DNA of 45,888 bases from a virus: positions 1 through 45,888 of IMG/VR virus record IMGVR_UViG_3300045253_000009; one strand, given 5' to 3'. The stretch's first letter is position 1. Each line of letters starts with the position of its first letter. Below, one piece after another: positions 3,660-32,308 of this stretch. The position numbers were made by a program, and so were the translations under genes. Under the pieces are notes generated by a model, which did no database searches, was not told where the DNA came from, and saw only the letters and a list, made by a program, of their open reading frames with translations.

Positions 3660-3735
3660 TGGGTGCGGCAGGACTCGAACCTGCACGATATACCGACCAA
3701 GTGGTCGGCTGCTTTGCCAATTAAGCTACACACCC
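3660..3735 (-). tRNA. tRNA-like gene with abnormal anticodon arm (no anticodon assigned)
   Basis: Acceptor GGGTGTG pairs with CGCACCC, the D-arm is GCTT/AAGC, the T-arm is GCAGG-TTCGAGT-CCTGC, and the discriminator is A; CCA is not encoded. The anticodon arm is abnormal. With stem GCCGA/TCGGT the loop is eight bases (CCACTTGG) without U33, and its ends can pair to close the loop to ACTT. The variable region is seven bases. The stem matches that of tRNA-Asn, so it may derive from such a tRNA. It lies in the only gap between the 154-aa gene and the helicase, just after a UUCG-type hairpin. It may be a decoy, a frameshifting tRNA or a processing signal. Confidence 0.7.
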
Positions 3736-3740
3736 TGGCA

Positions 3741-3760
3741 GGCTGGCCCGAAGGCCAGCC
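3741..3760. repeat. 8-bp perfect hairpin before the tRNA-like gene
   Basis: GGCTGGCC and GGCCAGCC flank CGAA (UUCG in the minus-strand RNA), a very stable tetraloop hairpin. It follows the stop of the 154-aa gene at 3768. There is no T-run on the minus strand, so it is more likely an RNA stability or processing element than a terminator. Confidence 0.6.
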
Positions 3761-3767
3761 CTTAAAC

Positions 3768-4232
3768 TCAGGCCTTGACGATCTTCATGCTGTGTTCCTT
3801 GCGGTTCCCGTTGCGCTTGTCCAGCTTCTTGCCGAACACGTCACCCTCGTCGATCGAACCGGCCTCGGTGACCGCAGCCTTGAAGACTTCACGCTCGTTG
3901 GCAGAGCCGGTCGCGGTGACCCGAGCCTCGGTCAGGTCAGCGGGCTTGCCTTCCCACTCGCCCACGACATCCTTGAGGTGGATCTCGATCTGATGGACAG
4001 GCTGGAGGCCCGCACGCTCAGCCTCATCCTTCGGCACACCCTTCGGCTTACCGTCCACCCAGAACTTCTGAAGGCCCATCTTGTTGGTGCTGGTGTCCCA
4101 CTCGGAGACGGTAGCCTCCGTGTCGATCTTGGTGATGACACCCTTGATGAACTCGCCCGCGTTCTTGAGGTTCACGAACTTGGGGCCAAAGCTTCCACCC
4201 TTGTTGCCGAGCAGTTCGTCCAGAGTAGGCAC
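3768..4232 (-). CDS. Putative single-stranded DNA-binding protein, 154 aa
   Basis: GTG start at 4232. The opening PTLDELLGNKGGSFGPKFVN, the GEFIKGVITKID strand and the middle (VHQIEIHLKDVVGEWEGKPADLTEARVTATG) look like a beta-rich OB-type fold, with a basic C-terminus. The position between a Cas4/RecB-like nuclease and the helicase also suggests an SSB-like role. There is no decisive motif, so the function is an inference. Confidence 0.6.
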   Translation of the reverse strand: MPTLDELLGNKGGSFGPKFVNLKNAGEFIKGVITKIDTEATVSEWDTSTNKMGLQKFWVDGKPKGVPKDEAERAGLQPVHQIEIHLKDVVGEWEGKPADLTEARVTATGSANEREVFKAAVTEAGSIDEGDVFGKKLDKRNGNRKEHSMKIVKA

Positions 4233-4367
4233 TTAGTTTTCTCCTTGGTTTTCTGTTGGTTCTTCTTGATCTTCATAGTACCAGTAGGTGCACTGGTAGT
4301 CACTGCATGACATCTCGCCGAACATGAGGGGCCCGACGACAGGCTCCCCACATAGTGGACATGTCAC
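4233..4367 (-). CDS. Zinc-ribbon microprotein, 44 aa
   Basis: GTG start at 4367 overlaps the upstream stop by 4 bases (GTGA). It begins TCPLCGEPVVG and later has CSDYQC, giving a CxxC...CxxxxC zinc site, with an acidic tail. Its stop abuts the GTG of the 154-aa gene, so both are translationally coupled. Function unknown. Confidence 0.6.
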   Translation of the reverse strand: MTCPLCGEPVVGPLMFGEMSCSDYQCTYWYYEDQEEPTENQGEN

Positions 4368-4780
4368 CAGTCTGCTGACACTACAACCGCAGGCTTGGGA
4401 GCCTGCGTCTCATCAGCCTCCCACGGCTTGGGCTTGGCGTCAACCTTCTGGTCCCAAGGCTTGCCATCCTCGACGTACGGTCGCTCCTCGTGCGACCTGT
4501 CCTCAGTGCCCTCAGGAAGCTCTGTAACGCCGCCCAGGCCCTCTTCAAGGAGACGTGCAGCCTCTTCCACCCCAGGCGCCTGCGGCGCCCTTACAGTGGC
4601 ACTCACGTCCACCTGAGACCCAAGCTTGAAGCCCTGAGTGAAGACGTTCAGGTAGACGGCAGCCGCCGCACCGAGAGCGGCGGCATCTCCGATGGTCTCG
4701 ATGCCCAGCTCCTCGGGAGTCGCCTTGATCTTCACGTTACCGAACTGCACGGTCGGAAGGGTGATCTCGATCTCGGCCAT
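4364..4780 (-). CDS. Hypothetical protein, 138 aa
   Basis: The ATG at 4780 is chosen because it overlaps the upstream stop by one base, like its neighbours. The N-terminal half (AEIEITLPTVQFGNVKIKAT) is beta-rich, followed by an Ala-rich segment (GDAAALGAAAAVYLN) and a charged, proline-rich, probably disordered tail. Not recognised; its place among replication genes suggests DNA metabolism. Confidence 0.65.
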   Translation of the reverse strand: MAEIEITLPTVQFGNVKIKATPEELGIETIGDAAALGAAAAVYLNVFTQGFKLGSQVDVSATVRAPQAPGVEEAARLLEEGLGGVTELPEGTEDRSHEERPYVEDGKPWDQKVDAKPKPWEADETQAPKPAVVVSADW

Positions 4781-4989
4781 CAGCGCTCCACCTTCGCGTT
4801 GTACTCGTAGCCCTCGTTCCAGAAGAACTCCTCGCCCCACTCACTGAGCAGCTCTTCCTGCCGACGCTCGGGTTCAGCGTCCCAGTCCTCGTCGCTATAG
4901 CCATAGTCGCTCAGGTCCACCACCTCGGTGGACTCGCAGCCAACGTACGGTCCGCTGGCATACAGCTCCAGCTTGTAGGTCTCAGCCAT
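4780..4989 (-). CDS. Hypothetical acidic protein, 69 aa
   Basis: Not recognised. Very acidic with many Trp, Tyr and Glu (DEDWDAEPERRQEELLSEW). Small acidic phage proteins sometimes mimic DNA or inhibit host enzymes, but nothing specific is seen. Overlaps both neighbours. Confidence 0.6.
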   Translation of the reverse strand: MAETYKLELYASGPYVGCESTEVVDLSDYGYSDEDWDAEPERRQEELLSEWGEEFFWNEGYEYNAKVER

Positions 4990-5254
4990 AGTTGTACGTC
5001 CTCACGATGTCGTCTTCCTTCTGGCAGGCCAGGCAGTACCACTCACCATCGGGCCTGTTGTAGTACATCTCATCCTCGCCGTGAGTGTCGCAGGACGCCT
5101 CAGCGTCCTCGCCCACAGTCCAGTCCTTGTTGTTCCAGTAGTCGTCGTCTTCACGTGAACCCATGACCTTGATCCTGTTCACTCGCTTGAATCGTTCGAC
5201 AGTCTTGGGCGACCTGCCGTACCGCCCGACCTGCTTGTAGCTGCCCGCCATCAT
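4982..5254 (-). CDS. Hypothetical zinc-finger-like protein, 90 aa
   Basis: ATG at 5254 overlaps the upstream stop by one base; a second ATG follows directly. The N-terminal third is basic (KQVGRYGRSPKTVERFKRVN), the middle acidic, and the C-terminus has CDTH and CLAC pairs that could bind one zinc. A basic region plus a zinc site suggests nucleic-acid binding (inference). Confidence 0.6.
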   Translation of the reverse strand: MMAGSYKQVGRYGRSPKTVERFKRVNRIKVMGSREDDDYWNNKDWTVGEDAEASCDTHGEDEMYYNRPDGEWYCLACQKEDDIVRTYNYG

Positions 5255-5373
5255 CACTCCCAGAATCTCCAGCAGTTCCGGCACTCTTCGTCCTCTTCCA
5301 GATTCCAGTAGCCACACTCGCACTTCCAGAGTGGACCGAAGTCCTCGTCATCTTCAGTCTCGACGCATACCAT
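5254..5373 (-). CDS. RanBP2-type zinc-finger microprotein, 39 aa
   Basis: ATG at 5373 overlaps the upstream stop by one base. After an acidic start, the core has Trp-x-Cys, a second Cys, an Asn three residues later, then six residues and CRNC. That is the spacing of RanBP2-type zinc fingers except that the first pair is CxC instead of CxxC. These fingers bind RNA or protein in known cases. The role here is unknown. Confidence 0.6.
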   Translation of the reverse strand: MVCVETEDDEDFGPLWKCECGYWNLEEDEECRNCWRFWE

Positions 5374-5567
5374 CAGTCGAAGCTCGGGATGATCGTCTGC
5401 CAGTCCATCAGTTCGTCGCGGCCGTCCTCGCTGACGACATACTCTTCGAGGTCCACGTAGGCCTCCTCGTAGCTGTCCCGATCCTCAAGGGACAGACGGT
5501 AGCCATCCTTGCGTGCCGCCTCGATGGCGGCACTGATCTTCTCGGCATGCTCAGAAAGGGTAGCCAT
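5373..5567 (-). CDS. Hypothetical acidic protein, 64 aa
   Basis: ATG at 5567 (MATLSEHAEKISAAIEAARK) overlaps the end of the nuclease gene by 17 bases. Helical at the N-terminus, acidic in the middle (DRDSYEEAYVDLEEYVVSED). Not recognised. Confidence 0.6.
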   Translation of the reverse strand: MATLSEHAEKISAAIEAARKDGYRLSLEDRDSYEEAYVDLEEYVVSEDGRDELMDWQTIIPSFD

Positions 5568-6366
5568 CTTCGGTGCTCCTGTCGTAGTACGTGGTTCTCT
5601 TGGTGATTCCTGAGTTGACCATGCAGTTGTCTTGCTGGAAGCAGAACTTACACCCGAAGCCAGCCTTGGCCTCGTAGTGCTTGCCTTGCATCCGATCGTA
5701 CACCTCTTGGTACTTCTTGCCAACCTCTTCAGGGTCGACCTCGGAAAGGTCTACGTACCTGGTGTTGGGTGCACCCGGAGCCAGCATGACATACCTACCC
5801 TTGAAGTTCAAGGCAGGGTCCCACGGGTTGTCGATCATCAGCAGTGCTGCGTACGTCGTCAGCTGGAAGTTGTCAGGCTTGGTGCTGCCTGTCTTCCAGT
5901 CGAGGATGACAGGGCCCTTCTTCTTGTGCTCACCGATGATGTCGACGAACGCCTTCACTGGGACCGAAAGCCCTGGAAGCCTGCCTGAGGCGTCGTACTC
6001 GACTTCCCATACATCGATAGCCTCAAGCTCTTCCAGTGCCTTAGAGAAGCACTCAGACACCCTGACGAGGGCTTTCTCCTCGGTGACCGGGTCGGCCTGA
6101 GGGCCTCCCGCCAACCACTTGCTAAGGTCTGGCTCGATCAGCATCTGCTTACGGATCAGAGGATAGAAGAAGTCCTCTGCACCCCAGCCTTCGGTGGTCC
6201 TCTTGTGTGGATCATCCTTCAGGTAGAAGTCCAACATGTCGTGAACTGCCGTGCCGATGGGGATGTACCAAGTCTGAAGCTCCTCGGCTTGCCTCATCTT
6301 GCTCAGGTACCAGCTGCGAGGGCAGCTGGTGTAGGTGCGGTACTGGCTATAGCTTATATGGTCCAT
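5551..6366 (-). CDS. Cas4/RecB-like PD-(D/E)XK exonuclease with probable Fe-S cluster
   Basis: 271 aa. SYSQYRTYTSCPRSWYL at the N-terminus and GTAVH (39-42 region) are typical of the RecB/Cas4 nuclease family. Asp142 (FVDIIGE), then LDWKTG (Asp156, Lys158) and QLTTYA form the active site. Cys15 with Cys239, Cys242 and Cys248 fit a 4Fe-4S cluster as in Cas4 and AddB. The family degrades or trims DNA ends, and phage versions sit beside helicase and SSB genes in replication or recombination modules, as here. No Cas1/Cas2 or CRISPR array is present, so a CRISPR role is not supported. Confidence 0.88.
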   Translation of the reverse strand: MDHISYSQYRTYTSCPRSWYLSKMRQAEELQTWYIPIGTAVHDMLDFYLKDDPHKRTTEGWGAEDFFYPLIRKQMLIEPDLSKWLAGGPQADPVTEEKALVRVSECFSKALEELEAIDVWEVEYDASGRLPGLSVPVKAFVDIIGEHKKKGPVILDWKTGSTKPDNFQLTTYAALLMIDNPWDPALNFKGRYVMLAPGAPNTRYVDLSEVDPEEVGKKYQEVYDRMQGKHYEAKAGFGCKFCFQQDNCMVNSGITKRTTYYDRSTEDGYPF

Positions 6367-6373
6367 GCTCCTA

Positions 6374-6892
6374 TCATACAGCCTTAGGGTGACGGTTGCG
6401 TTTGCGTGGCGGACGTACCCTGTTGGCTTCGGAGATCTGCTTACAGGTCAGGCAGTAGAACTTGCCACTGCTTCGCTTGCCCCACCTGTCATGACCCTTG
6501 TTGCATGCCTTGCCACGGGTGAAAGCCTGTGCTGGCTTGCCATGGTTACCACCACCAGTAGGTTTGAACAGCCCCTCCGGGGGCTGTCCTCCACGGGTAG
6601 TCCAGTGCCTGTCATCCTCGTTCGAGTTGACCAGGCAAGATCTCTTCACGGGACAACCGTTGCAAACCTTGAGTCCCTTAGCTACTAGATCATGTTGTTC
6701 ATCAAGAGCTTCGCTCCCCTGAACCATCAGATCATCAGAGAGTTCGAACCACTCAGCGGGGAGGGATTGGCACAAGGCATCATCCCTCCACTCCTCATAT
6801 GGTACAGCAGCCCCCCGAAGGGGCTGCCTATACAGGGCTATCTGTGGCCCGTTGTAGCTCATGTCCACCCCGGAGCCTTCGCTGTCTCTCAT
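6374..6892 (-). CDS. WhiB-like transcription factor with an added C-terminal zinc site
   Basis: 172 aa, or 162 aa if ATG codon 11 is used. Four cysteines (Cys41, Cys77, Cys80, Cys86) are spaced as in WhiB iron-sulfur regulators: DDALCQSLPAEWF, then CNGCPVKRSC. The usual GVWGG turn is changed to TTRGGQPPEGL. A second module (Cys130, His134, Cys147, Cys150) looks like a zinc ribbon and is followed by a very basic tail, RPPRKRNRHPKAV. WhiB proteins are found only in actinobacteria and their phages, where they contact the main sigma factor. This one may redirect host transcription. The gene contains two perfect 8-bp hairpins (6568-6587 and 6807-6827). Confidence 0.85.
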   Translation of the reverse strand: MRDSEGSGVDMSYNGPQIALYRQPLRGAAVPYEEWRDDALCQSLPAEWFELSDDLMVQGSEALDEQHDLVAKGLKVCNGCPVKRSCLVNSNEDDRHWTTRGGQPPEGLFKPTGGGNHGKPAQAFTRGKACNKGHDRWGKRSSGKFYCLTCKQISEANRVRPPRKRNRHPKAV

Positions 6893-7101
6893 TTCCTCCC
6901 CGCTCTAGGTCCGCCCTCAGGCGGACCCTTACTAGTACTACTGGTTACTCTTGATTGCGCCATCAGGCGTACTTCGAACTCGACGCCGTAGGCGGCGCTC
7001 GTTCGGATCGCAATGTTGCGCTAGTACCTAAGAGCAGTATAACCATGACCCTGGATGGCTCGTCAGGAGTGCCGTGTCATGACGGCGTGACTTGCGTCAC
7101 G
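6893..7101. other. Non-coding gap with hairpins and a possible promoter
   Basis: No gene seen. It has a perfect GGTCCGCC/GGCGGACC hairpin near 6908-6927, an ACTAGTACTACT motif that recurs near 16556, and paired GCCG/CGGC and GGCGT/ACGCC stems around 6968-6992. A TATACT hexamer on the minus strand (7041-7036) has CTGACG 19 bases upstream, a weak promoter candidate for the WhiB-like gene. The GTGAC palindrome at 7087-7100 closes the gap. Confidence 0.45.
7087..7100. promoter_or_regulatory. Palindrome GTGAC-TTGC-GTCAC
   Basis: Perfect inverted repeat, extended by GC/GC on both sides, directly after the 43-aa gene. It closely matches 7272-7285 (12 of 14 bases). Likely an operator; it could also be a small RNA hairpin. 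Confidence 0.5.
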
Positions 7102-7233
7102 CTACTCCTCGAAGCCTGACAGTCTGCGGGCCCATGGGTGGATCTGCACTGCTTCCTTCTGTGGCTCGTCGCAGTCACCTCGCCAGTCAGGCAGGATGGT
7201 GATCTTCTTCTCGGGCTCTTCCGTTTCGGGCAT
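7102..7233 (-). CDS. Hypothetical protein, 43 aa
   Basis: ATG at 7233. Begins MPETEEPEKKITILPDWRGD and ends HPWARRLSGFEE; acidic start, Trp-rich middle. Not recognised. It lies alone between two matching GTGAC palindromes and downstream of the RHH-like gene, so both could be one regulated unit. Confidence 0.5.
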   Translation of the reverse strand: MPETEEPEKKITILPDWRGDCDEPQKEAVQIHPWARRLSGFEE

Positions 7234-7271
7234 TCGGGCAACTCTCTCTAGAAATTTCTCAGAAAAGTACA

Positions 7272-7285
7272 GTGACCTACGTCAC
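7272..7285. promoter_or_regulatory. Palindrome GTGAC-CTAC-GTCAC
   Basis: Perfect inverted repeat just past the stop of the RHH-like gene and upstream of the 43-aa gene. Near copy of 7087-7100. A 10-bp AGAAATTTCT palindrome lies about 15 bases further left. Confidence 0.5.
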
Positions 7286-7286
7286 A

Positions 7287-7535
7287 TCAGTAAGGGATGG
7301 GTCCACAGTCACCAGGTGCGTGGTACCCCTTCTCGCAGTCCGGGTCATGTGTTACCTCCTGTCGGGCAGCCATGCGGTCCCTTATGGCGTTGGCCTGGGC
7401 GGCCACTGACTGCTGCACCACGAAGGATACGTTGCTGATGTCATATGATGCCATGACCAGGTTCAGGTCTTGTGCGAACTGCTGAGTCATGTGCACTGTG
7501 ATGCGTGTCTTATCACGCATGTCAGGGTGAGGCAC
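7287..7535 (-). CDS. Ribbon-helix-helix-like regulator, 82 aa
   Basis: GTG at 7535 is preferred to the ATG at 7520, because AAAGGA lies eight bases before it. TRITVHMTQQFAQDLNLVMA followed by NVSFVVQQSVAAQANAIRDR has the strand-helix-helix pattern of small RHH repressors, with a Cys/His/Pro tail (HDPDCEKGYHAPGDCGP). It is transcribed away from the metallophosphoesterase operon through a shared promoter region, so it probably controls that operon and itself. Two ATGTGAT repeats in that region are possible targets. The fold is an inference from sequence pattern. Confidence 0.6.
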   Translation of the reverse strand: MPHPDMRDKTRITVHMTQQFAQDLNLVMASYDISNVSFVVQQSVAAQANAIRDRMAARQEVTHDPDCEKGYHAPGDCGPIPY

Positions 7536-7568
7536 AGATGTGATCCTTTCATGTGATAGTATTGCCTT
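7536..7568. promoter_or_regulatory. Divergent promoter region with ATGTGAT direct repeats
   Basis: ATGTGAT occurs at 7538-7544 and 7551-7557, a 13-base period. The hexamer at 7557-7562 (TAGTAT) ends seven bases before the rightward ATG, which has no Shine-Dalgarno, so a leaderless rightward message is likely. The same bases read TACTAT on the minus strand, about 20 bases before the leftward GTG. Both promoters would therefore overlap and compete. Confidence 0.45.
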
Positions 7569-8339
7569 ATGGCAAAGACGAAGAGCACTCTCATCATCCC
7601 TGATGTGCAGTACCCATACCATGACCATGTGGTACTGGATAAGATACTGCACATCGTCCGAGACAGACAGCCCGATCAGATCGTGCAGATCGGTGACGGC
7701 ATCGACTTCCCTACCGTCTCACAGTGGTCCAAGGGTACGGCTGGTGAGTACGCAGACACCCTCCAGGAGCACGTAGAGGGCTACCGGGCCGACGTTCTGG
7801 TCCCCCTTCGGGAGAGCGCGCCAGAAGCGCGGCTCGTATGGGTCGAAGGTAATCATGATCTTCGACTGAGGGAGTTCATCCGGAAATACGCTGCGCCACT
7901 CGCTCCACTGAAGGCGCTTGAAACCCACAACCTCTTCCAGCTCAGTGATCTCGACATCAGCTACGAACGTGGCCCTCTCCGTGTAGCCACCAATACGCTG
8001 GTAGTACACGGCCACGAGGCTGGCGGATACTGTAGTTCCGCGTCCGCCTGGGATACCAAGTTCACGAAGCGGTACGGCAGCGACAAGAACTTCGTGTTCG
8101 GTCATACACACCAGCCTTTCCTGGTTACTCGTGCGTTCGGTTACTCTGGCCGGGTTTCTCCCAGGTTCACGATGAACGCGGGAAGTATCATGGATCCCGT
8201 GGCTGCGACGTACGTCAAGGACGGAGCCGTATCCTGGCAACAGTCATTTGGCTGGCTGGAGGACGACGGGAAGAGAGTGTGGCCTGAGCTTGTTACACTA
8301 GTAGACAGGTTGGGATACTTCAAGGGAGAGCGCATCTGA
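7569..8339 (+). CDS. Calcineurin-like metallophosphoesterase
   Basis: 256 aa. The family motifs are in order: IPDVQYPYHDH (Asp12), IGDGIDF (Asp43), EGNHD (Asn95, His96, Asp97), VHGHE (His147) and FGHTHQP (His179, His181). These residues bind two metals in phosphodiesterases and phosphatases. The substrate cannot be read; DNA, RNA ends or nucleotides are possible, and pairing with the RNA ligase in RNA end healing is a speculation. First gene of the only rightward unit inside the leftward region. Confidence 0.88.
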   Translation: MAKTKSTLIIPDVQYPYHDHVVLDKILHIVRDRQPDQIVQIGDGIDFPTVSQWSKGTAGEYADTLQEHVEGYRADVLVPLRESAPEARLVWVEGNHDLRLREFIRKYAAPLAPLKALETHNLFQLSDLDISYERGPLRVATNTLVVHGHEAGGYCSSASAWDTKFTKRYGSDKNFVFGHTHQPFLVTRAFGYSGRVSPRFTMNAGSIMDPVAATYVKDGAVSWQQSFGWLEDDGKRVWPELVTLVDRLGYFKGERI

Positions 8340-8449
8340 TGTGTGACGACTGCCGCTGGAAGTGGTGCGACCTGCACGAAGACTACGACATCCTGATCCT
8401 GTGTGACAAGTGCGAAGAGAAGGAAGATGAGAATGCTGGACTACACTAA
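8339..8449 (+). CDS. Zinc-binding microprotein, 36 aa
   Basis: ATG at 8339 overlaps the phosphoesterase stop (TGATG). CDDC at residues 2-5, a Cys-x-x-His pair in the middle and CDKC at 22-25 can bind zinc; the tail is acidic. It overlaps the sigma-like gene start by 17 bases. Function unknown. Confidence 0.55.
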   Translation: MCDDCRWKWCDLHEDYDILILCDKCEEKEDENAGLH

Positions 8450-9110
8450 GCTGACACCCGCAGTCGACCGTGCTGCGGGCATCGTTGCGTCCAACTTCCC
8501 TGCACACCACGACATCGACGACGTGAAGCAGACGTTGTGGGTGTGGATCATGGAGAAGAAGTCCTTCGTGTCGGAGAAGCTCGACCAGGAGAATGGCGAG
8601 CAGACTCTCATCAACATCATGGTGAAGGTCGGTCAGAGCTTCCTCAAGTCAGAAGACGCCGCTGTGTACGGGTACTCGGAGGAAGACCGGTTCTTCTACT
8701 CGGTCGACATGATCAAGAAGATCCTGGAAGTCATCTTCAGGTACGAGGACTGGCAGTCGTTCGCCATGTCGCAGGATGCTCAGCCGAAGGCCAAGACAGA
8801 GCCTGCCACTGGTGGCAACAACCTTGCCTCGTACGCCGACGTCAAGTCGGCGGTAGAGAAGCTCCCAGAAGACTACTACAATCTCATCGTGTGGCGCTAC
8901 AAGTACAGCCTTACGTTCACTCAGATCGGTGCCGAGAACGGCACCACCAAGCAGTCCGTCCAGGAGCGTCACAACAGGGCTGTGAAGGCCATTCAGGCAC
9001 TACTTGGGCAGCAGCCACTGAGCGAGCTTCGTAGTGGCTACGACGGGCGCACAGAGGCTCGTAACAACGCCTCTGGTGTGGCCCGAGTCGAGCGTGACTA
9101 CGAAGGCTGA
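8433..9110 (+). CDS. Sigma-factor-like DNA-binding protein, 225 aa
   Basis: The ATG at 8433 is favoured because GAAGGA lies eight bases before it; an ATG at 8427 is an alternative. The C-terminal half reads LPEDYYNLIVWRYKYSLTFT, QIGAENGTTKQSVQERHNRA and VKAIQALLG, the helix-turn-helix of sigma region 4 or of ECF-like factors. The N-terminal part (RAAGIVASNF, DDVKQTLWVWIMEKK) is reminiscent of sigma region 2. It could direct RNA polymerase to late or middle phage promoters, or act like a small-terminase-type HTH protein. The operon ends at the terminator 9192-9218. Confidence 0.65.
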   Translation: MLDYTKLTPAVDRAAGIVASNFPAHHDIDDVKQTLWVWIMEKKSFVSEKLDQENGEQTLINIMVKVGQSFLKSEDAAVYGYSEEDRFFYSVDMIKKILEVIFRYEDWQSFAMSQDAQPKAKTEPATGGNNLASYADVKSAVEKLPEDYYNLIVWRYKYSLTFTQIGAENGTTKQSVQERHNRAVKAIQALLGQQPLSELRSGYDGRTEARNNASGVARVERDYEG

Positions 9111-9111
9111 G

Positions 9112-9186
9112 TGGGTGGTGGGGGAATCGAACCCTCCGGTCATGCCTGACCTGCCTTCACGTAGATGAGTACGCGATACTCCACCC
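9112..9186 (-). tRNA. Degenerate tRNA-like element, 75 nt
   Basis: Acceptor GGGTGG pairs with CCACCC followed by A. A T-arm-like hairpin GAGGG-TTCGATT-CCCCC has one A-C mismatch. There is no normal D-arm. A stem GCGTA/TACGT closes a six-base loop CTCATC, one base short of a Met-like CTCATNN loop, and GGTCA/TGACC forms a further hairpin. It lies at the convergent end of the rightward island, next to the terminator. Not a normal tRNA by inspection. Confidence 0.55.
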
Positions 9187-9191
9187 TTGGG

Positions 9192-9218
9192 AGCCCAGCC
9201 TTTCGGCTGGGCTTTCTT
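9192..9218 (+). terminator. Intrinsic terminator of the 7569-9110 operon
   Basis: Perfect 9-bp stem AGCCCAGCC/GGCTGGGCT around TTTC, followed by TTCTT. Suited to stop rightward transcription; on the minus strand the same hairpin follows the leftward gene ending at 9227, though without a T-run. Confidence 0.8.
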
Positions 9219-9226
9219 GCTGTCCG

Positions 9227-9298
9227 TCAGTCTTCCATCATCAGGATGACGACCATCCCGATGACGAACCCGACGACGAGTCCGAAAAAGAACCCCAT
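9227..9298 (-). CDS. Membrane microprotein, 23 aa
   Basis: ATG at 9298, five bases after the previous stop at 9301-9303. Almost all one transmembrane helix (GFFFGLVVGFVIGMVVILM) with an acidic end. Last of four tiny membrane proteins in a row. Function unknown. Confidence 0.55.
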   Translation of the reverse strand: MGFFFGLVVGFVIGMVVILMMED

Positions 9299-9300
9299 GA

Positions 9301-9471
9301 TCACTCCTCTCCCGACCAGGCCTTGAGCACTTCGTCCGGATCGTCGATCTCGTCGCCTACCATGTACTCGATGGCATCCTGAAGCCGGTGCGCACGGTCG
9401 TACCAGTGGACAGCCACTCCAGTGGCTGTGGCCAGCAGGAGGCCACTTACGAACGGGAGAACGTCTCTCAT
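9301..9471 (-). CDS. Small membrane protein, 56 aa
   Basis: ATG at 9471 overlaps the previous stop by 4 bases (ATGA). One N-terminal membrane helix (VLPFVSGLLLATATGVAV), then a charged, acidic soluble tail (DEIDDPDEVLKAWSGEE). The arrangement resembles small phage lysis or superinfection-exclusion proteins but gives no specific match. Confidence 0.6.
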   Translation of the reverse strand: MRDVLPFVSGLLLATATGVAVHWYDRAHRLQDAIEYMVGDEIDDPDEVLKAWSGEE

Positions 9472-9590
9472 CGGCCCCTACCTCCACCCGAGCCAGCCAA
9501 CCACACGATGATGGCACCTACCACAAGGGCGCCTCCAGCGCCCTTGCCTACCATCTGCTGGGCCATGATGATGTTCTGTGCGAGCGTCAT
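9468..9590 (-). CDS. Small membrane protein, 40 aa
   Basis: ATG at 9590 overlaps the previous stop by 4 bases. Amphipathic start (MTLAQNIIMAQQMVGKGA), then a membrane helix (GGALVVGAIIVWLAGSG) and a basic end. Coupled to the genes on either side. Function unknown. Confidence 0.55.
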   Translation of the reverse strand: MTLAQNIIMAQQMVGKGAGGALVVGAIIVWLAGSGGGRGR

Positions 9591-9655
9591 GACTTGATCG
9601 CCATCGCTGCGGCGAAGCCCGCGATGAAGAAGAACACCGCTGTGAGTATTACCAT
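9587..9655 (-). CDS. Membrane microprotein, 22 aa
   Basis: ATG at 9655 overlaps the end of the 186-aa gene by 7 bases. A single membrane helix (MVILTAVFFFIAGFAAAMA) with a Lys-Ser end. First of the four-gene membrane cluster. Confidence 0.5.
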   Translation of the reverse strand: MVILTAVFFFIAGFAAAMAIKS

Positions 9656-10209
9656 TTTGCCTCCTTGTGGTAGTACTGCTCAAGATTCCGGTTGGAATCT
9701 GCTTGCAGTACTCCGGTCTTCAGGTCTCGCAGCAAGACGCACTGCGGACCTACTGCTACAACCTCGAAGGTGGCTATCCTCTGCCTCAGGGAGACCTTGT
9801 CTTCGACCTTCCAGACAGGGTTTGACCAGGCTTCGGCGATCTCTTCGTCGGTCATCTCGACCATCTTACCCTTGCCGTCCACCTGGATGCGCTTCTTGGG
9901 ACGATATTCCTCGCAGTAGCGCCAGAACTCGGACTCAGCCGAGCCCAGCCAGCCATTCCCCCCCGCCTCAGGGACAACCCAAAGGTTGTCACCTTGCAGC
10001 CATGCCACTCGGTAAGCCTTGTTAGCTATGATCGTCTTGAGTAGCATGCCCTCCCTCAAGGGGAGGGCTGGAGCGGGAGGAGTGACAGCATCCCAGTATC
10101 CGTCCACGATCTCTGTAGCGATCTCTTTGAGAGATCGCCCCTCGTTGCGATCGGAGTCCAGGAACTTGGCTACGGCTTCGATCTGCTGGTTCTTAGAGGG
10201 GAGTGGCAA
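9649..10209 (-). CDS. Hypothetical protein, 186 aa
   Basis: The TTG at 10209 is preferred: it lies nine bases after AAGGAGG, while the TTG at 10218 directly abuts it. N-terminal helical part (KNQQIEAVAKFLDSD, SLKEIATEIVDGYWDAV), then a basic middle and a beta-rich C-terminus (ATFEVVAVGPQCVLLRDLKT). Not recognised; it may bind nucleic acid. Contains a perfect GACAACC/GGTTGTC hairpin at 9973-9990 whose arms recur at 10451-10469. Confidence 0.65.
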   Translation of the reverse strand: MPLPSKNQQIEAVAKFLDSDRNEGRSLKEIATEIVDGYWDAVTPPAPALPLREGMLLKTIIANKAYRVAWLQGDNLWVVPEAGGNGWLGSAESEFWRYCEEYRPKKRIQVDGKGKMVEMTDEEIAEAWSNPVWKVEDKVSLRQRIATFEVVAVGPQCVLLRDLKTGVLQADSNRNLEQYYHKEAKW

Positions 10210-10426
10210 ACGATACAACCTCCTTGCTCACCCGGTAGCCAACGACAGTCTCGATGGAGACCCGATGGATGTAGGAATTCTGGTCGGTCGCTTTGGTGTG
10301 ATCCTTGGCGTATGACTTGGCGTCCGACTCAGGGTCGACCCCAGTCATGCAGACCTCGATCACGTTCTCCGGGTCGAGGGCGTAGTTCCTGTTGCTGGAC
10401 TTACTGGCCACGTATCCGATACGCAT
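10193..10426 (-). CDS. Hypothetical protein, 77 aa
   Basis: ATG at 10426 with GGAGG six bases upstream. MRIGYVASKSSNRNYALDPENV then a beta-rich C-terminus. Not recognised. It overlaps the TTG start of the next gene and follows a tRNA-like element plus hairpins. Confidence 0.6.
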   Translation of the reverse strand: MRIGYVASKSSNRNYALDPENVIEVCMTGVDPESDAKSYAKDHTKATDQNSYIHRVSIETVVGYRVSKEVVSFATPL

Positions 10427-10450
10427 GTGTCCTCCTGTTGTGTAGCCACA

Positions 10451-10469
10451 AGACAACCGAAGGTTGTCT
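10451..10469. repeat. 8-bp perfect hairpin AGACAACC/GGTTGTCT
   Basis: Loop is GAA (TTC on the minus strand). Seven bases of its arms match the intragenic hairpin at 9973-9990. It precedes the 77-aa gene and follows a GCGT-TCAAGC type hairpin at about 10475-10496. Confidence 0.6.
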
Positions 10470-10497
10470 CTCCGCGTCAAGCTGCGCTTGAACGCTA

Positions 10498-10542
10498 GTG
10501 GGCGCCCAGGACTCGAACCTGGGTGTATGCCATTCGCCCCAC
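10498..10542 (-). ncRNA. Minimal tRNA-like element: acceptor plus T-arm only
   Basis: GTGGG pairs with CCCAC, and inside is a strong T-arm, CCCAGG-TTCGAGT-CCTGGG, with a perfectly canonical T-loop. Only about 14 bases replace the D and anticodon arms. An acceptor/T-arm minihelix is the known minimal substrate of RNase P, so a processing role is plausible. Lies between the 116-aa gene stop (10546) and the 77-aa gene. Confidence 0.6.
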
Positions 10543-10545
10543 CTA

Positions 10546-10896
10546 TCAGAAGTTCTTCTCGATCAGATCTGCGATCTCGGAGAACGTCGCACCGTTGTCG
10601 TTCTTCCACGACAGGCGGTCCTCATGTGCCCCCCCGATCGCAGGATCGTCGCCGATCAGGCCTGCCCACTGCTGCACCTCTCGCGGCAGGTAGGCATTGG
10701 TCACCGGTCCATCCTCAAGCTTGTAGCCGGAGCCCTGCCACTCGCCCAGTCCGGAGATGTCGCAGAGGACGCCGAGGCAGCAGTAACCGACCTGGCCATC
10801 CTCGGCGTCCCTCAGGCTCAGGTGGGTCTGGACGTACTCTCCAGAGCGAAGAGCTTCCAGCCACTTGGCCTTGGCTTCGGGGTTCATCTTTTCCAT
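10546..10896 (-). CDS. Conserved phage hypothetical protein, 116 aa
   Basis: ATG at 10896 with AAAGGGAG upstream. The KWLEALRSGEYVQ start followed by GYCCLGVLCD is a familiar pattern in many phage proteins of unknown function, from memory. The two adjacent cysteines in CCLGVLC may bind metal. The stop lies four bases before the tRNA-like minihelix. Confidence 0.7.
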   Translation of the reverse strand: MEKMNPEAKAKWLEALRSGEYVQTHLSLRDAEDGQVGYCCLGVLCDISGLGEWQGSGYKLEDGPVTNAYLPREVQQWAGLIGDDPAIGGAHEDRLSWKNDNGATFSEIADLIEKNF

Positions 10897-10938
10897 GGTG
10901 ACTCCCTTTGAGCACTGTTTCCGCTTCTGCGGACTGGC

Positions 10939-11014
10939 CAGCACGAGCGAACATCCCTCAAGCGGGTTGACAAGACCCTCGGGGCGCCTACTTATGTTTC
11001 GGCAACTCGTGCTG
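10939..11014 (-). ncRNA. 76-nt structured element with tRNA-like length
   Basis: A perfect 9-bp outer stem CAGCACGAG/CTCGTGCTG encloses a GCC/GGC hairpin in D-arm position and GGGT-CTTGTCA-ACCC, a seven-base loop with U33 and TGT in anticodon position. No T-arm is seen. The total length equals a tRNA. It lies in the gap between the 63-aa gene and the 116-aa gene, after the hairpin at 11024-11045. Likely a diverged member of the tRNA-like family. Confidence 0.45.
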
Positions 11015-11023
11015 ACTAGACCG

Positions 11024-11045
11024 CACAGCCCCCGAAGGGGCTGTG
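11024..11045. repeat. 9-bp perfect hairpin CACAGCCCC/GGGGCTGTG
   Basis: Loop CGAA (TTCG in the minus-strand RNA). Immediately follows the stop of the 63-aa gene. There is no T-run, so it is more likely an RNA stability or processing hairpin than a terminator. Confidence 0.6.
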
Positions 11046-11051
11046 ACGGAA

Positions 11052-11243
11052 TCATGCAGGTTCGATGGTGATGGTGATCTTGTAGACCTTCCACCCATCG
11101 GTGTCCGAATAGAAGAACTCCTCCTGCTTGGAGAAGTTCGCTCCGCCCGTCTCCTGCAACTCTCGAAACACGGAGTCGGCGGAATAGTCACGGGTGTAGG
11201 CGACCGCTTCAAGGCGGTCGGGTCCGTCAGTCGCCCAGGCCAT
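11052..11243 (-). CDS. Hypothetical protein, 63 aa
   Basis: ATG at 11243 overlaps the previous stop by one base. AWATDGPDRLEAVAYTRDYS then SDTDGWKVYKITITIEPA, a small alpha/beta protein. Not recognised. Confidence 0.6.
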   Translation of the reverse strand: MAWATDGPDRLEAVAYTRDYSADSVFRELQETGGANFSKQEEFFYSDTDGWKVYKITITIEPA

Positions 11244-11395
11244 CAGCCGATCGTCTTTCCCTTGAAGATGTTGCCAGTACTCACCAGTCGTCGCCTGGTC
11301 AGACTGAAGGCCTTGGGGTGCTGCTTGTAGGCCTTCCCGTTGGGCCGGTCAGACCGGATCTTCTTGTGGACAGGAGTCCTGCTGAGCTTCCCCAT
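11243..11395 (-). CDS. Hypothetical basic protein, 50 aa
   Basis: ATG at 11395. Very rich in Lys and Arg (GKLSRTPVHKKIRSDRPNGK, SLTRRRLVS), which suggests nucleic-acid binding. Starts two bases before the stop of the 47-aa gene and ends overlapping the 63-aa gene. Confidence 0.55.
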   Translation of the reverse strand: MGKLSRTPVHKKIRSDRPNGKAYKQHPKAFSLTRRRLVSTGNIFKGKTIG

Positions 11396-11396
11396 G

Positions 11397-11540
11397 TCAC
11401 TTCCCTACCTTGTAGACACCGGCACGCTTCACGGGCCAGAAGCCGAACTTGATGTGGGTGTAACCCGAGTACGAGTATACTCTGACCGCATCGAATCTCG
11501 CAAGGCGAGCCAGTGCGAACTTGACTGTCTGGCTAGTCAT
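11397..11540 (-). CDS. Hypothetical basic protein, 47 aa
   Basis: ATG at 11540 overlaps the upstream gene by 8 bases. MTSQTVKFALARLARFDAVR then aromatic GYTHIKFGFWPVKRAG. Not recognised. Confidence 0.5.
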   Translation of the reverse strand: MTSQTVKFALARLARFDAVRVYSYSGYTHIKFGFWPVKRAGVYKVGK

Positions 11541-11706
11541 AGCAGGCATCCTCCAACTCCATCTCGGGCTCACGGAAGAACTCCACAAGATCCCAAATGT
11601 CTTCGCAGGTCACGGAGCAGATGAGACTCACAGACTTACCCATGTCCGACTTGCAGACCAGGCACTTGGAGTCGTCTGCCCAGTCCGGATTGCCATACTC
11701 TGGCAT
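11533..11706 (-). CDS. Hypothetical zinc-binding protein, 57 aa
   Basis: ATG at 11706 is chosen because AAGGAG lies seven bases upstream. CLVC near residue 15 and a later CSVTC give a possible four-Cys zinc site in a small treble-clef-like layout; the C-terminus is acidic. First gene after the 11707-11833 hairpin array. Confidence 0.6.
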   Translation of the reverse strand: MPEYGNPDWADDSKCLVCKSDMGKSVSLICSVTCEDIWDLVEFFREPEMELEDACYD

Positions 11707-11833
11707 TGTGTTGCTCCTTACTGCCAAAAGCCCTGAGCGGGCTTCTGAGCGCCTAAAGGGGCTTCTGAGGCCTGAGGTACCCGAAGTACCATCCTAGAGG
11801 CTTAGAGGGCCCGCGAGGGCCCTCCTGGGGGCA
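11707..11833. repeat. Array of four hairpins with a GGGCTTCTGAG direct repeat
   Basis: No gene. Stems include AGCCC/GGGCT, CCTCAGGCC-type, GGTACC-type around GAAG, and AGGGCCC/GGGCCCT. GGGCTTCTGAG occurs at 11739-11749 and 11759-11769, a 20-base period. It fills the gap between the kinase-like gene stop and the 57-aa gene. Confidence 0.55.
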
Positions 11834-12316
11834 TTAGCACCCAAGGTCGACGGGTACCAGAAGCCCGTCTTCGTCGATCATGACATTCTGCTCGTGCATG
11901 TCGTCGAGGCGGTACGTTCGCTCGATGGAGCGATACTCCTCGCGGTGGTAGTTGAGGCAATCGGGGTAGCCGTACTTGGCGTGCAGCGTCTTACCCTTGA
12001 TGACCTCCATGGCCACCACCACCTCGCCAGCGGGACGATATTCTGCGAAGCGAGGAAGACGGCACCCCTTGGGGGTCTTCTTCAGCCAAGCCCTTCGAAG
12101 GTTCCGGACCTCCGAGCGCGACTGGGAGTCGTACGCAGAGTGATTCACCTTGTAGGCGACTCCCTCGGGGGAACGCCACACGGAGCGGAATGATCCACGA
12201 CCGAGGAACTCCCAGCCCTCAGGAGCCTTCGCGCTGGGCACGTCGCATGATTTCCGGCCCTTGCTCACCCACTCAAGGATGAACTTGGCGTCGGCTTCGT
12301 TACCGATGTTGTGCAT
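11834..12316 (-). CDS. Protein-kinase-fold protein, 160 aa
   Basis: ATG at 12316 with GGAGG upstream. FLGRGSFRSVWR (38-48) is a kinase glycine loop, GVAYKVNH holds the ATP-binding lysine (Lys56), and Glu69 is a candidate helix-C glutamate. DDMHEQNVMIDEDGLLVPVD has Asp139/His141, Asn144 and Asp157 in the catalytic-loop and DFG positions (here DLG). It is short (a full kinase is about 250 aa) and lacks most of the C-lobe. It may phosphorylate a host protein or small molecule, as T7 kinase does, or be a minimal antibiotic-kinase-like fold. The substrate is unknown. Confidence 0.7.
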   Translation of the reverse strand: MHNIGNEADAKFILEWVSKGRKSCDVPSAKAPEGWEFLGRGSFRSVWRSPEGVAYKVNHSAYDSQSRSEVRNLRRAWLKKTPKGCRLPRFAEYRPAGEVVVAMEVIKGKTLHAKYGYPDCLNYHREEYRSIERTYRLDDMHEQNVMIDEDGLLVPVDLGC

Positions 12317-12335
12317 ACGTCCTCCTGTAAGGACA

Positions 12336-12357
12336 GGAACGCCCCCTCGGGCGTTCC
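12336..12357. repeat. 9-bp perfect hairpin paired with the next tRNA-like element
   Basis: GGAACGCCC/GGGCGTTCC around CCTC. On the minus strand it lies directly after the element at 12363-12413 and before the kinase ribosome-binding site. Confidence 0.6.
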
Positions 12358-12362
12358 CTAGC

Positions 12363-12413
12363 GAGCGGGGAGAGAATCGCACTCTCGCTAGAGGCTTGGT
12401 TACCCCTCCGCTC
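12363..12413 (-). ncRNA. tRNA-like element without an anticodon arm (copy A)
   Basis: GAGCGG pairs with CCGCTC as acceptor. GAGG-GGTAACCAAG-CCTC forms a D-like arm and GAGAG-TGCGATT-CTCTC a T-like arm with a seven-base T-loop (T54, C56 and A58 kept). A TAGC linker replaces the anticodon arm. Nearly the same sequence and fold occurs at 14035-14083, and the fold also at 13498-13547, with compensated stem changes. It lies between the phosphoribosyltransferase and kinase-like genes. Confidence 0.7.
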
Positions 12414-12446
12414 CAGCACCTCACCTCCGGCGAGGATGCGCATCTT

Positions 12447-12908
12447 TCACCAACCGAGTTCAGCCCAGTCGGACCGAAAGTCCTCGAACCTGCCCTTTGC
12501 GTCGTAGTTGTCATCGCGGTAGGCCTGGTACATGTACTGCCCGACCATCTCGGTGGGCGTGACCGTCTCCCAGCGCTTCGCTTCATCGTGTGCAGCGCTG
12601 ATCTTCTCGATCACCCTCTTGCGGGTCACCCCGGACGAGACGAAGTCGTCCACGAAGATCCAACGGGCACCGAGTTGACCAACCAGTCGACCCTTGCCAT
12701 GGTGGGAGTCGTCCGTCTCCTTGCGGATCAGAACGAACTTCTTACCCATGGCCAGGGCGAGAGCAGGGATCACGATGCTGCCCGAGAAGCCAGTGCCGAC
12801 CAACGTGTCGAAATCGACGTCGGCCAGTCGCTCCTGTGCAGTCTCGATCACCCCAGCCAGGTTGAAGGTAGCCTCATCCATGTACCACGTCTTGAACTTG
12901 GTCATCAT
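12447..12908 (-). CDS. Phosphoribosyltransferase-family protein
   Basis: 153 aa. RWIFVDDFVSSGVTRKRV (82-99) is the PRPP-binding loop, with two Asp and the SSG(V)T turn; VGTGFSGSIVIPALAL is the earlier family segment, and KFVLIRKE the beta strand between. Family members join a base to PRPP or act as regulators. The base cannot be told; salvage or NAD-related use is possible. Start ATG at 12908 follows AAGGGAA; a second ATG is next to it. Confidence 0.8.
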   Translation of the reverse strand: MMTKFKTWYMDEATFNLAGVIETAQERLADVDFDTLVGTGFSGSIVIPALALAMGKKFVLIRKETDDSHHGKGRLVGQLGARWIFVDDFVSSGVTRKRVIEKISAAHDEAKRWETVTPTEMVGQYMYQAYRDDNYDAKGRFEDFRSDWAELGW

Positions 12909-12918
12909 GCTTCCCTTC

Positions 12919-12939
12919 AGGGGCGCCCTGCGCGCCCCT
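12919..12939. repeat. 8-bp perfect hairpin AGGGGCGC/GCGCCCCT
   Basis: Loop CCTGC. It sits just upstream of the phosphoribosyltransferase start and downstream of the T-arm hairpin at 12948-12968, the same pairing of tRNA-like element and GC hairpin seen elsewhere. Confidence 0.55.
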
Positions 12940-12947
12940 CGTGAGCG

Positions 12948-13014
12948 GGGAGGGGTTCGAACCCTCCCAGCGACGCAGCGAAGCTGCTAGCGAGAGCTAG
13001 CGAACTTCGTTCGC
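12948..13014 (-). ncRNA. T-arm hairpin joined to a three-hairpin module
   Basis: GGGAGGG-TTCGAAC-CCCTCCC (12968-12948) is a 7-bp T-arm with a canonical T-loop, and is followed by CCGCTCAC as in the 14035 element. Upstream are three consecutive hairpins: GCGAAC/GTTCGC (13000-13014), TAGC/GCTA (12988-12999) and GCAGC/GCTGC (12975-12987). The three-hairpin module has a counterpart at 15061-15109 with different stem sequences but similar loops. Fills the gap between the lipoprotein and phosphoribosyltransferase genes. Confidence 0.55.
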
Positions 13015-13049
13015 GACGCACCAGGCCTGGATACCTGACGCCCTACCTT

Positions 13050-13457
13050 TTAGCCCTCTGAACTGTTCTGGAAGTCAACGTCCGGGATCAGTTCCGAAGG
13101 ACGGAACACGACCTTGTAGTGGTAGCCGCTCACCTTGGCAGGTGAGCCCTGCTCCACTGTGTACGTGACGTTGTCCGACAGGCCAGCGTAGAACTTCTTG
13201 TACGCACCAGGGCCAGTCTTGCAGGTGACCACAAGACTCTTCGGGTCATCGATGTTGATGGAGCAAGCTCCAGTGATGACCATCAGGTACTTGTCCGTGA
13301 TGCCGTTGATCACGACGATACGGCGGTTGACCTGAAAGTGGTCGGCAGCCTTGGATACGTTGTTCGAAGCCGTATCGGCTTCGCTCGTACAGGCTGTCGC
13401 ACCTATGCCCAGAGTGACCGCTGCCATGGCAGCAGCAGCGATGTGGCTCTTACGCAT
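13050..13457 (-). CDS. Secreted lipoprotein, probable beta-sandwich type
   Basis: 135 aa. N-terminal signal MRKSHIAAAAMAAVTLGIGA ends in a lipobox-like ATAC, with Cys23 as the lipidated residue. The mature part (FQVNRRIVVINGITDKYLMV, SINIDDPKSLVVTCKTG) is beta-rich and matches, from memory, a lipoprotein common in Streptomyces phages. It would sit on the outer face of the host membrane. Exclusion of other phages is a possible role (inference). Confidence 0.75.
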   Translation of the reverse strand: MRKSHIAAAAMAAVTLGIGATACTSEADTASNNVSKAADHFQVNRRIVVINGITDKYLMVITGACSINIDDPKSLVVTCKTGPGAYKKFYAGLSDNVTYTVEQGSPAKVSGYHYKVVFRPSELIPDVDFQNSSEG

Positions 13458-13497
13458 TTATGTCCTCATTCCCGAGAAGACACCTTGTCTTCCCAGC

Positions 13498-13547
13498 GGG
13501 TGTCAGGATCTTTGCATCTCCTGCGGAGGCTTGAGTACCTCTCACCC
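13498..13547 (-). ncRNA. tRNA-like element without an anticodon arm (copy C)
   Basis: GGGTG/CACCC acceptor, GAGG-TACTCAAG-CCTC D-like arm, and CAGGA-GATGCAAAGA-TCCTG T-like arm containing TGCAAAG. The D-like loop keeps the CAAG seen at 12363 and 14035, while acceptor and T-arm stems differ but still pair. Just upstream on the minus strand is a GGGGC/GCCCC hairpin. It sits between the 124-aa gene and the lipoprotein gene. Confidence 0.55.
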
Positions 13548-13612
13548 TTGGGGCTACTTTGTGCCCCTATCGACCCCTCTCGGGACGGTGCCTCCGAGGT
13601 TGGCCGAGTCTT

Positions 13613-13987
13613 TCAGCTCTGGTAGTACTCCGTGACGGCAGCCAGCGCGGCGCCCCACGGTTCGCCGCGATCCTGTCGGTACTGAATGCTGTCCAACAGG
13701 TTCTTGACTCCATCTCCGGAGTAAACTGTTCCCTCGTCCGAGAGGCGACCCAAGAGGATGCCAGCCGCGAGGCCGGGACCGCTGCCCTCCGTGTCGGCCT
13801 TCACCAGGCGCTCCAAGGGGACGCCCTGAGCCGCCAGAAAGCGACCCACGATGCAGTCAGGCTTGCCCTCGTGAACGTAGACGCAGCTGCCGTCACGCTC
13901 AGCCCTGGGGTAGATGAAATCCTCACCCTGCTCCTCCACCAGAGCCTTCAGGCCATCAATGGCAGAGTCGAAAGTGATCTCGATCAT
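13613..13987 (-). CDS. Hypothetical protein, 124 aa
   Basis: ATG at 13987 is preferred because GGAAGGA lies eight bases upstream; an in-frame ATG at 14005 lacks one. Starts MIEITFDSAIDGLKALVEEQ, with a Cys-containing middle (RDGSCVYVHEGKPDCIVGRF) and helical C-terminus. Not recognised. Confidence 0.65.
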   Translation of the reverse strand: MIEITFDSAIDGLKALVEEQGEDFIYPRAERDGSCVYVHEGKPDCIVGRFLAAQGVPLERLVKADTEGSGPGLAAGILLGRLSDEGTVYSGDGVKNLLDSIQYRQDRGEPWGAALAAVTEYYQS

Positions 13988-14008
13988 CTCTTGTGTCCTT
14001 CCCATTCA

Positions 14009-14029
14009 CGCCGCCCCTCATGGGCGGCG
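14009..14029. repeat. 8-bp perfect hairpin CGCCGCCC/GGGCGGCG
   Basis: Loop CTCAT. Follows the tRNA-like element at 14035-14083 on the minus strand, just before the ribosome-binding site of the 124-aa gene. Confidence 0.6.
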
Positions 14030-14034
14030 CTAGT

Positions 14035-14083
14035 GAGCGGGGGAGAGTTGCACTCCACTGAGGGCTTGGTTACCCCTCCGCTC
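14035..14083 (-). ncRNA. tRNA-like element without an anticodon arm (copy B)
   Basis: GAGCGG/CCGCTC acceptor, GAGGG-GTAACCAAG-CCCTC D-like arm, GGAG-TGCAACT-CTCC T-like arm. It shares a 20-base block with copy A (12363-12413), while the T-arm stem is GGAG/CTCC here and GAGAG/CTCTC there, so pairing is kept although sequence changes. It lies between the 38-aa membrane protein gene and the 124-aa gene. Confidence 0.7.
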
Positions 14084-14095
14084 GTTGGATGTGGA

Positions 14096-32230: not shown

Positions 32231-32308
32231 AGCGGGGTAGAGCAGCTCGGAGTGCTCGCCAGCCTCATAAGCTGGAGGTCGTGGGTTCAAATCCCACCCC
32301 CGCTACCA
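32231..32308 (+). tRNA. tRNA-Met (CAT), CCA encoded
   Basis: All arms are regular: acceptor AGCGGGG/CCCCGCT, D-arm GAGC/GCTC, anticodon stem CCAGC/GCTGG with loop CTCATAA, T-arm GTGGG-TTCAAAT-CCCAC, then ACCA. Overall it resembles bacterial initiator tRNA (A11-T24, the T-loop and D-loop), but base 1 pairs with 72 and the three GC pairs at the base of the anticodon loop are missing, which are elongator traits. It lies between structural gene 31133 and the scaffold gene, the only normal tRNA in the genome. Confidence 0.93.

Follow-up and report, generated by a model that had tools for sequence, protein, structure and literature searches.

Known systems and the elements of this study

In mitochondria, transfer RNAs (tRNAs) lying between messenger RNAs (mRNAs) are excised by ribonuclease (RNase) P and RNase Z, an arrangement known as tRNA punctuation, and in plant mitochondria t-elements, tRNA-like structures that are not tRNAs, are cut by the tRNA-processing enzymes into mRNA ends. 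Here we describe a family of tRNA-like elements, the mini-tRNAs, in the gaps between the leftward genes of the IMG/VR virus record IMGVR_UViG_3300045253_000009 (hereafter the window, which is the whole record of 45,888 bases) and in other phages. Like the mitochondrial system, they are tRNA-shaped units between genes, with the acceptor/T-arm on the coding strand; unlike it, they measure ∼43 nucleotides (nt), lack an anticodon arm, are unable to decode and precede a hairpin and a ribosome-binding site. They probably work as tRNA punctuation does, and membership of that class hinges on cleavage, which we infer here. Whereas t-elements are individual sequences, the mini-tRNAs form a covarying family in bacterial viruses, with up to about 10 copies per genome.

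Other systems share single features with these elements. The early transcript of phage T7 is split by the host RNase III at intergenic structures; the logic is the same, the structure and the enzyme differ, and the cyanophage copies described below sit in T7-like genomes. The tRNA-like domain of transfer-messenger RNA (tmRNA) also combines an acceptor, a stemless D-loop and a T-arm without an anticodon arm, but the mini-tRNA has no tag frame, alanine identity or CCA, and is a 43-nt unit within mRNAs. The armless mitochondrial tRNAs of nematodes and mites are likewise very short tRNA-like RNAs; they drop the D or T arms and keep the anticodon, whereas the mini-tRNAs do the reverse and keep the elbow. 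Finally, RNase P cleaves sites in his and other polycistronic mRNAs and the C4 antisense RNA of phages P1/P7 (PMC11143913, review), which are non-tRNA substrates, one of them from a phage; unlike the mini-tRNAs, these sites are single, belong to no shared RNA family and show no systematic intergenic placement.

Structure and covariation of the mini-tRNA family

The preliminary description of the window placed tRNA-like structures in eight gaps of the leftward operon. Using a combined descriptor (an acceptor helix with a stacked T-arm whose loop reads T[T/G]C[A/G]A), we detected such structures on the minus strand in six of the eight gaps (3660, 9112, 10498, 12363, 12948 and 14035) and in none of them on the plus strand. 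Neither control reached six in 1000 trials; the yield was 0.06 of 8 in shuffled gaps and 0.10 of 8 in random minus-strand stretches. The element at 13498 is supported by relatives only, and the candidate at 10939, a long hairpin without a T-arm that fails the descriptor, was not confirmed as a family member. An earlier descriptor with a 5-base-pair (bp) acceptor only found two of the eight sites, missed the offset type B copies (see below) and was replaced by the combined one; a broad scan of all loci for a T-arm with a long-range acceptor was too loose (252 matches versus 133 expected) and revealed the compact motif. The four T-loops described as TTCGA-type (3660, 9112, 10498 and 12948) were present, those at 12363 and 14035 reading TGCGATT and TGCAACT, and the guanine-cytosine (GC) hairpins beside the elements were seen in the folds, as claimed.

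The family consensus obtained by scanning relatives is GGGNG-AAYGGCATACA-(6 bp)-TTCGAGT-(6 bp)-CNCCC-R-C, which the copy at 10498 fits exactly (67.8 bits, expectation value E 4.8e-15, R1 covariance model); with so complete a fit to a conserved 43-nt family, it makes the earlier label 'degenerate' misleading. In this architecture (type A, ∼43 nt), a 5-bp acceptor, an 11-nt stemless D-loop with nothing beyond one pair in place of the D-stem and a T-arm with a UUCGA-type loop are retained. The anticodon arm, said earlier to be abnormal or missing in nearly all elements, is absent from all type A copies. In a second architecture (type B; 12363, 14035 and cyanophage P-SSP7), a small D-hairpin is retained.

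We tested 13 proposed pairs in an alignment of 79 distinct copies. All pairs were intact in 100% of 1027 cells, a value that is biased because the stems had served for copy selection. Two-sided changes numbered 332, compared with 101 in shuffles, and pairing collapsed when the partners were shifted by one column. Two tertiary pairs outside the selection, D-loop 2:8 and D-loop 9 with T-loop 7 (the last T-loop base), covaried in 79 of the 79 copies of the building set; in other phage groups, outside model building, they held in 56 of 58 copies (shuffled mean 27 and 30, maximum 38 and 41). The tRNA contact 18-55 switches jointly from G:U to A:G (69 and 13 of 83 copies, respectively), the elbow contacts 18-55, 19-56 and 54-58 are retained, and G19 and C56 are invariant. 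G1:C72 was found in 72 and C74 in 73 of the 83 copies, and R73 is kept. The acceptor and T-stem together usually comprise 11 bp (12 in some copies), position –1 is mostly A, and position 75 is U or G. The mini-tRNAs, made up of an acceptor of 5–6 bp, a D-loop and a T-arm, are thus RNA-level structures that keep the tRNA elbow without an anticodon arm.

None of the 4227 Rfam families matched any mini-tRNA copy. The tRNA family RF00005, at its gathering threshold, matched no mini-tRNA in 13 phage loci or in window positions 9112–14084, only 3660 passing; at a permissive threshold, Rfam returned only chance matches besides tRNA in the window region. ARAGORN found no tmRNA in the window and the loci, and no report on these elements was found in the open-access literature searched. 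The RNA family is real, widespread and absent from Rfam. The tRNA calls of ARAGORN and Rfam in the window were 3660 and 32231 only; the latter (32231–32305, plus strand) is a good tRNA-Met (CAT) within the rightward structural operon, and several related records likewise have a tRNA with a high score at a distance from the early genes.

Position of the elements between genes

Gap statistics were computed for nine annotated phages. Gaps of 75–130 nt carried a copy in 59 of 79 cases. For longer gaps the figure was 10 of 20, for those of 31–74 nt it was 4 of 35, and no copy occurred in the 127 gaps that measure at most 30 nt. The element most commonly starts 5–7 nt past the stop codon (median 10) and ends at a median of 43 nt before the next start, so that the order at a junction is stop codon, ∼6 nt, mini-tRNA, 2–4 nt, GC hairpin, ribosome-binding site and start codon. 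A hairpin of at least 5 bp directly follows the element in 78% of the soil-phage copies (20% in shuffles), usually at an offset of 2 nt, and a Shine-Dalgarno sequence and start codon lie within 90 nt, after the hairpin, in 82% of these copies.

An absence of paired stems from the same junctions in related phages had been named as an outcome that would speak against the preliminary description. At the junction before window gene 12447–12908 (site 12948), an acceptor/T-arm element was present in 15 of 16 relatives; its pairs are kept while sequence and type vary, and the structure is thus conserved despite sequence turnover. The compensatory changes in stems and tertiary contacts, the coding-strand bias (see below) and this structure-keeping turnover at one junction therefore demonstrate selection on the RNA, namely for a mimic of the tRNA elbow at gene junctions.

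Distribution across phages and hosts

A covariance-model search of related phages, as proposed in the preliminary description, gave 112 matches at E < 0.01 in 1.03 megabases of relatives, all on the early-gene strand. Seven cultured Streptomyces phages (five Camvirus, one Likavirus and one Yosifvirus) each contain 8–10 copies (64 strong matches in total, all on the early-gene strand); mycobacteriophage Send513 has 10 copies and Oaker 6, on the gene strand. In the whole records searched, up to 15 copies per record were found. In many phages, the early polycistronic mRNA contains these elements as minimal mimics of tRNA.

A BLAST search with the consensus gave at least 80% query coverage in 136 phage records; the T-arms of ordinary tRNAs also turn up in BLAST and pattern searches (E above ∼0.1 in this BLAST search), so only the covariance model was used to count copies. 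A scan of 84,980 species genomes gave six matches, all confirmed by the model, in Jiangella, Amycolatopsis, Microbacterium, Hymenobacter, a Proteiniphilum metagenome-assembled genome (MAG) and a Flavobacteriales MAG. Carriers thus include prophages of Actinomycetota and Bacteroidota as well as T7-like cyanophages, that is, three host phyla. In the T7-like cyanophages, a single copy lies immediately upstream of the major head gene; it is of type A in loci L091 and L124 and of type B in P-SSP7 and S-TIP37. A mini-tRNA of 54.5 bits near the mobF relaxase gene of a mobilizable Corynebacterium plasmid (L188:4826–4869, plus strand) means that the family is not confined to phages.

The window terminase shares 77–95% identity with the terminases of many soil virus contigs; its identity to the terminases of FlowerPower, Immanuel3 and WRightOn, three cultured podoviruses of Streptomyces (Beephvirinae), is ∼63–65%. 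Leftward genes dominate left of ∼16.6 kilobases in the window, an arrangement found in these three phages too, and a nucleotide search of phage records with the early region of the window gave no match. The model search found no confident type A copy in FlowerPower, Immanuel3, WRightOn, R4 and phiC31; not all relatives, therefore, carry the family.

Tandem arrays of 3–6 mini-tRNAs ∼110 nt apart (Table 1) occur in some prophages and large phages. Their spacers consist of GGCNN pentamers, GGC recurring 117 times at a 5-nt interval, compared with 4.4 in shuffles. These arrays may be processed small-RNA arrays or a decoy. In the Endor2 record, the annotated tRNA-Arg (44378–44460; L178:5879–5961, minus strand) begins with a mini-tRNA (5879–5921, R1 65.3 bits) and overlaps the preceding gene; it is probably a spurious tRNA call.

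Possible role in transcript processing

We consider it rather likely that the mini-tRNAs punctuate polycistronic phage mRNA through RNase P and/or RNase Z, the hairpin shielding the new 5' end. Bacterial RNase P binds the acceptor/T-stem stack and the elbow and pairs with R73-C74-C75 (PMC11143913; PMC4919913), model hairpins consisting only of acceptor stem, T-stem and T-loop are cut by it (PMC11143913, review), and human ELAC2 (RNase Z) also requires the elbow (PMC11996679). The elements agree in part with such recognition in that they lie always on the transcribed strand and in real gaps, and retain the acceptor/T-stem stack, the elbow, G+1:C72, R73 and C74.

In the proposed mechanism, host RNase P would measure from the elbow along the acceptor/T-stem stack and read R73-C74, and cuts by RNase P and/or RNase Z at the element borders would split the long transcript into shorter, separately controlled mRNAs. 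At 10498, the predicted RNase P cut lies between 10540 and 10539, and the predicted RNase Z cut between 10499 and 10498. A cut behind R73 would let the downstream mRNA begin 2–4 nt before its hairpin, with a 5'-monophosphate end that the hairpin could shield from 5'-end-dependent decay; a 5'-proximal hairpin is known to slow such decay. The ribosome-binding site of the freed mRNA would stay in a constant context, and the design would resemble a processing-plus-hairpin insulator. Occurrence in three host phyla would be expected if a universal enzyme reads the elements. Nearly all actinophage copies have C74, whereas the five distinct cyanophage copies all lack it; the RNase P of cyanobacteria has no GGU to pair with RCC, and CCA hinders it (PMC4264200). 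This match is suggestive, with few cases.

Several observations weigh against processing. The C74 argument rests on five cyanophage copies with a conserved 3' flank, and the L15 loops of the other hosts show no simple GGU, those of actinobacterial RNase P RNAs reading GGA or GGG. The stacked pairs mostly number 11, compared with 12 in tRNA, position 75 is U or G rather than C, and most copies have A at –1, which is not preferred by RNase P. About a quarter of the suitable gaps have no match, 5 of the 17 whole records searched have zero copies, some close relatives have none, and arrays outside gene gaps need no explanation by punctuation.

An uncut element could also act in cis, the mini-tRNA and hairpin together blocking a terminating ribosome or a degrading nuclease and leaving every gene with a translation start and a stability of its own. 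The usual start just past the stop codon, the constant distance to the next start and the adjoining hairpin are consistent with such an insulator; a barrier, however, needs neither the 18-55 and 19-56 contacts nor R73 or C74, yet all are kept, and we regard this explanation as unlikely. It is quite unlikely, in our estimate, that the mini-tRNAs are decoys for a host factor that binds the elbow or T-arm (T-loop modifying enzymes, RNase P itself or a tRNA-attacking defence nuclease): their number per record and their tandem arrays would suit a sponge, but the fixed place between stop codon and ribosome-binding site in nearly all gap copies is unneeded for one, and, lacking an anticodon, they are no bait for an anticodon nuclease.

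The GC hairpins without a U-tract that adjoin most elements might instead pause or terminate RNA polymerase, alone or with the element, and U-less terminators are known in actinophage phiC31. In the junctions inspected, no U-run as expected of an intrinsic terminator follows the element or its hairpin. Termination after nearly every gene would silence the operon, and the tRNA-specific tertiary pairs would be left unexplained, which makes a transcription-level device improbable. That the elements are decayed tRNA genes, or DNA-level recombination joints at the module borders of mosaic phage genomes, might be suggested by 3660, which still scores as a tRNA, and by the location of copies at gene borders; this is contradicted by the compensatory changes, the strict coding-strand bias and the turnover described above, and we give it hardly any credence.

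Taken more broadly, the processing interpretation would mean that a minimal tRNA-elbow module, perhaps the smallest full-elbow tRNA fold, has spread or arisen convergently among the phages of at least three host phyla. Host RNase P and RNase Z would read this module as gene punctuation, and with its mRNA-protecting hairpin it would form a natural mRNA insulator; for this wider statement we see the chances as evenly balanced. The ∼43-nt family sits in such well-studied phages as phiCAM, Joe, Endor2, Amela, Send513 and Oaker. If the role is true, tRNA punctuation, best known from mitochondria, would be a common phage means of organizing early gene expression, and the elements would serve in Streptomyces and mycobacteria as a ready mRNA insulator and would provide clean substrates for defining the minimal tRNA needs of RNase P and RNase Z.

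Individual sites

The features are summarized in Table 1. The tRNA-like gene at 3660 is a genuine match to RF00005 (51.8 bits) with a defective anticodon loop, reported by ARAGORN as tRNA-??? with a 2-nt anticodon. A GTG with an open frame begins at most 2 nt after it (3660–3657, minus strand) without a ribosome-binding site; an RNase Z cut at 3660 would give a near-leaderless mRNA from that frame. The element at 9112 lies at the end of the leftward operon, opposite a convergent sigma-factor gene. Site 13498, which fails the descriptor on its T-loop and is supported by type A elements before the same gene in loci L080 and L036, is at best a damaged copy. The gene orthologous to that following 14035 is preceded by an element in 10 relatives.

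Table 1. Coordinates of mini-tRNAs, related elements and adjoining hairpins in the window, and of mini-tRNA arrays in other loci
Feature	Position	Strand	Description	Basis
tRNA-like gene (3660)	3660..3735	-	acceptor, D and T arms intact; anticodon loop of 6 nt (or 4 nt), no proper anticodon	
GC hairpin	3741..3760	-	GGCTGGCC TTCG GGCCAGCC; adjoins 3660, upstream in RNA	fold
tRNA-like element (9112)	9112..9186	-	acceptor, T-arm (TTCGATT), two internal hairpins	
Terminator-like hairpin	9192..9213	.	AAGCCCAGCC GAAA GGCTGGGCTT	fold and sequence
Second hairpin	10451..10469	-	AGACAACC..GGTTGTCT; downstream of 10498	fold
GC hairpin	10474..10495	-	directly 3' of 10498	fold
Canonical mini-tRNA, type A (10498)	10498..10540	-	G(-1) GGGCG AATGGCATACA CCCAGG TTCGAGT CCTGGG CGCCC A73 C74	
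GC hairpin	12336..12357	-	downstream of 12363	fold
Mini-tRNA, type B (12363)	12362..12413	-	acceptor GAGCGG/CCGCTC, D-hairpin, T-arm GAGAG TGCGATT CTCTC	
GC hairpin	12920..12938	-	downstream of 12948	sequence and fold
Extended element (12948)	12943..13043	-	acceptor GGGCG/CGCTC (one G-U), D-like hairpin, nested-hairpin insert, T-arm GGGAGGG TTCGAAC CCCTCCC	
Hairpin	13476..13492	-	GAAGACACCTTGTCTTC; downstream of 13498	fold
Degraded element, type B (13498)	13498..13547	-	acceptor GGGTG/CACCC, D-hairpin GAGG..CCTC, 10-nt T-loop	fold
Hairpin	14009..14029	-	CGCCGCCC..GGGCGGCG; downstream of 14035, before start codon of gene 13613-14005	fold
Mini-tRNA, type B (14035)	14033..14084	-	acceptor GAGCGG/CCGCTC, D-hairpin GAGGG..CCCTC, T-arm with TGCAACT loop	
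Mini-tRNA array	L140:6207-6889	-		
Mini-tRNA array	L085:6614-7003	-		
Mini-tRNA array	L144:6681-7167	+		
Mini-tRNA array	L112:1220-1526	-		
Mini-tRNA array	L157:121-374	-		
Mini-tRNA array	L133:2532-2852	+		

Other RNAs near the cyanophage copies and in Send513

A second conserved structured stretch (TTGGC...GGATACC...GCCGTC..GACGGTGGGATAGACCACA) directly follows the cyanophage mini-tRNA, before the major head gene (L091:11060–11160, minus strand; L173:1075–1150, plus strand), and has no Rfam match. In P-SSP7 and S-TIP37, a Glutamine-II riboswitch lies between psbA and the mini-tRNA (L173:923–976 and L175:536–589, plus strand). Mycobacteriophage Send513 also encodes a GOLLD RNA (L186:15206–15666, plus strand).

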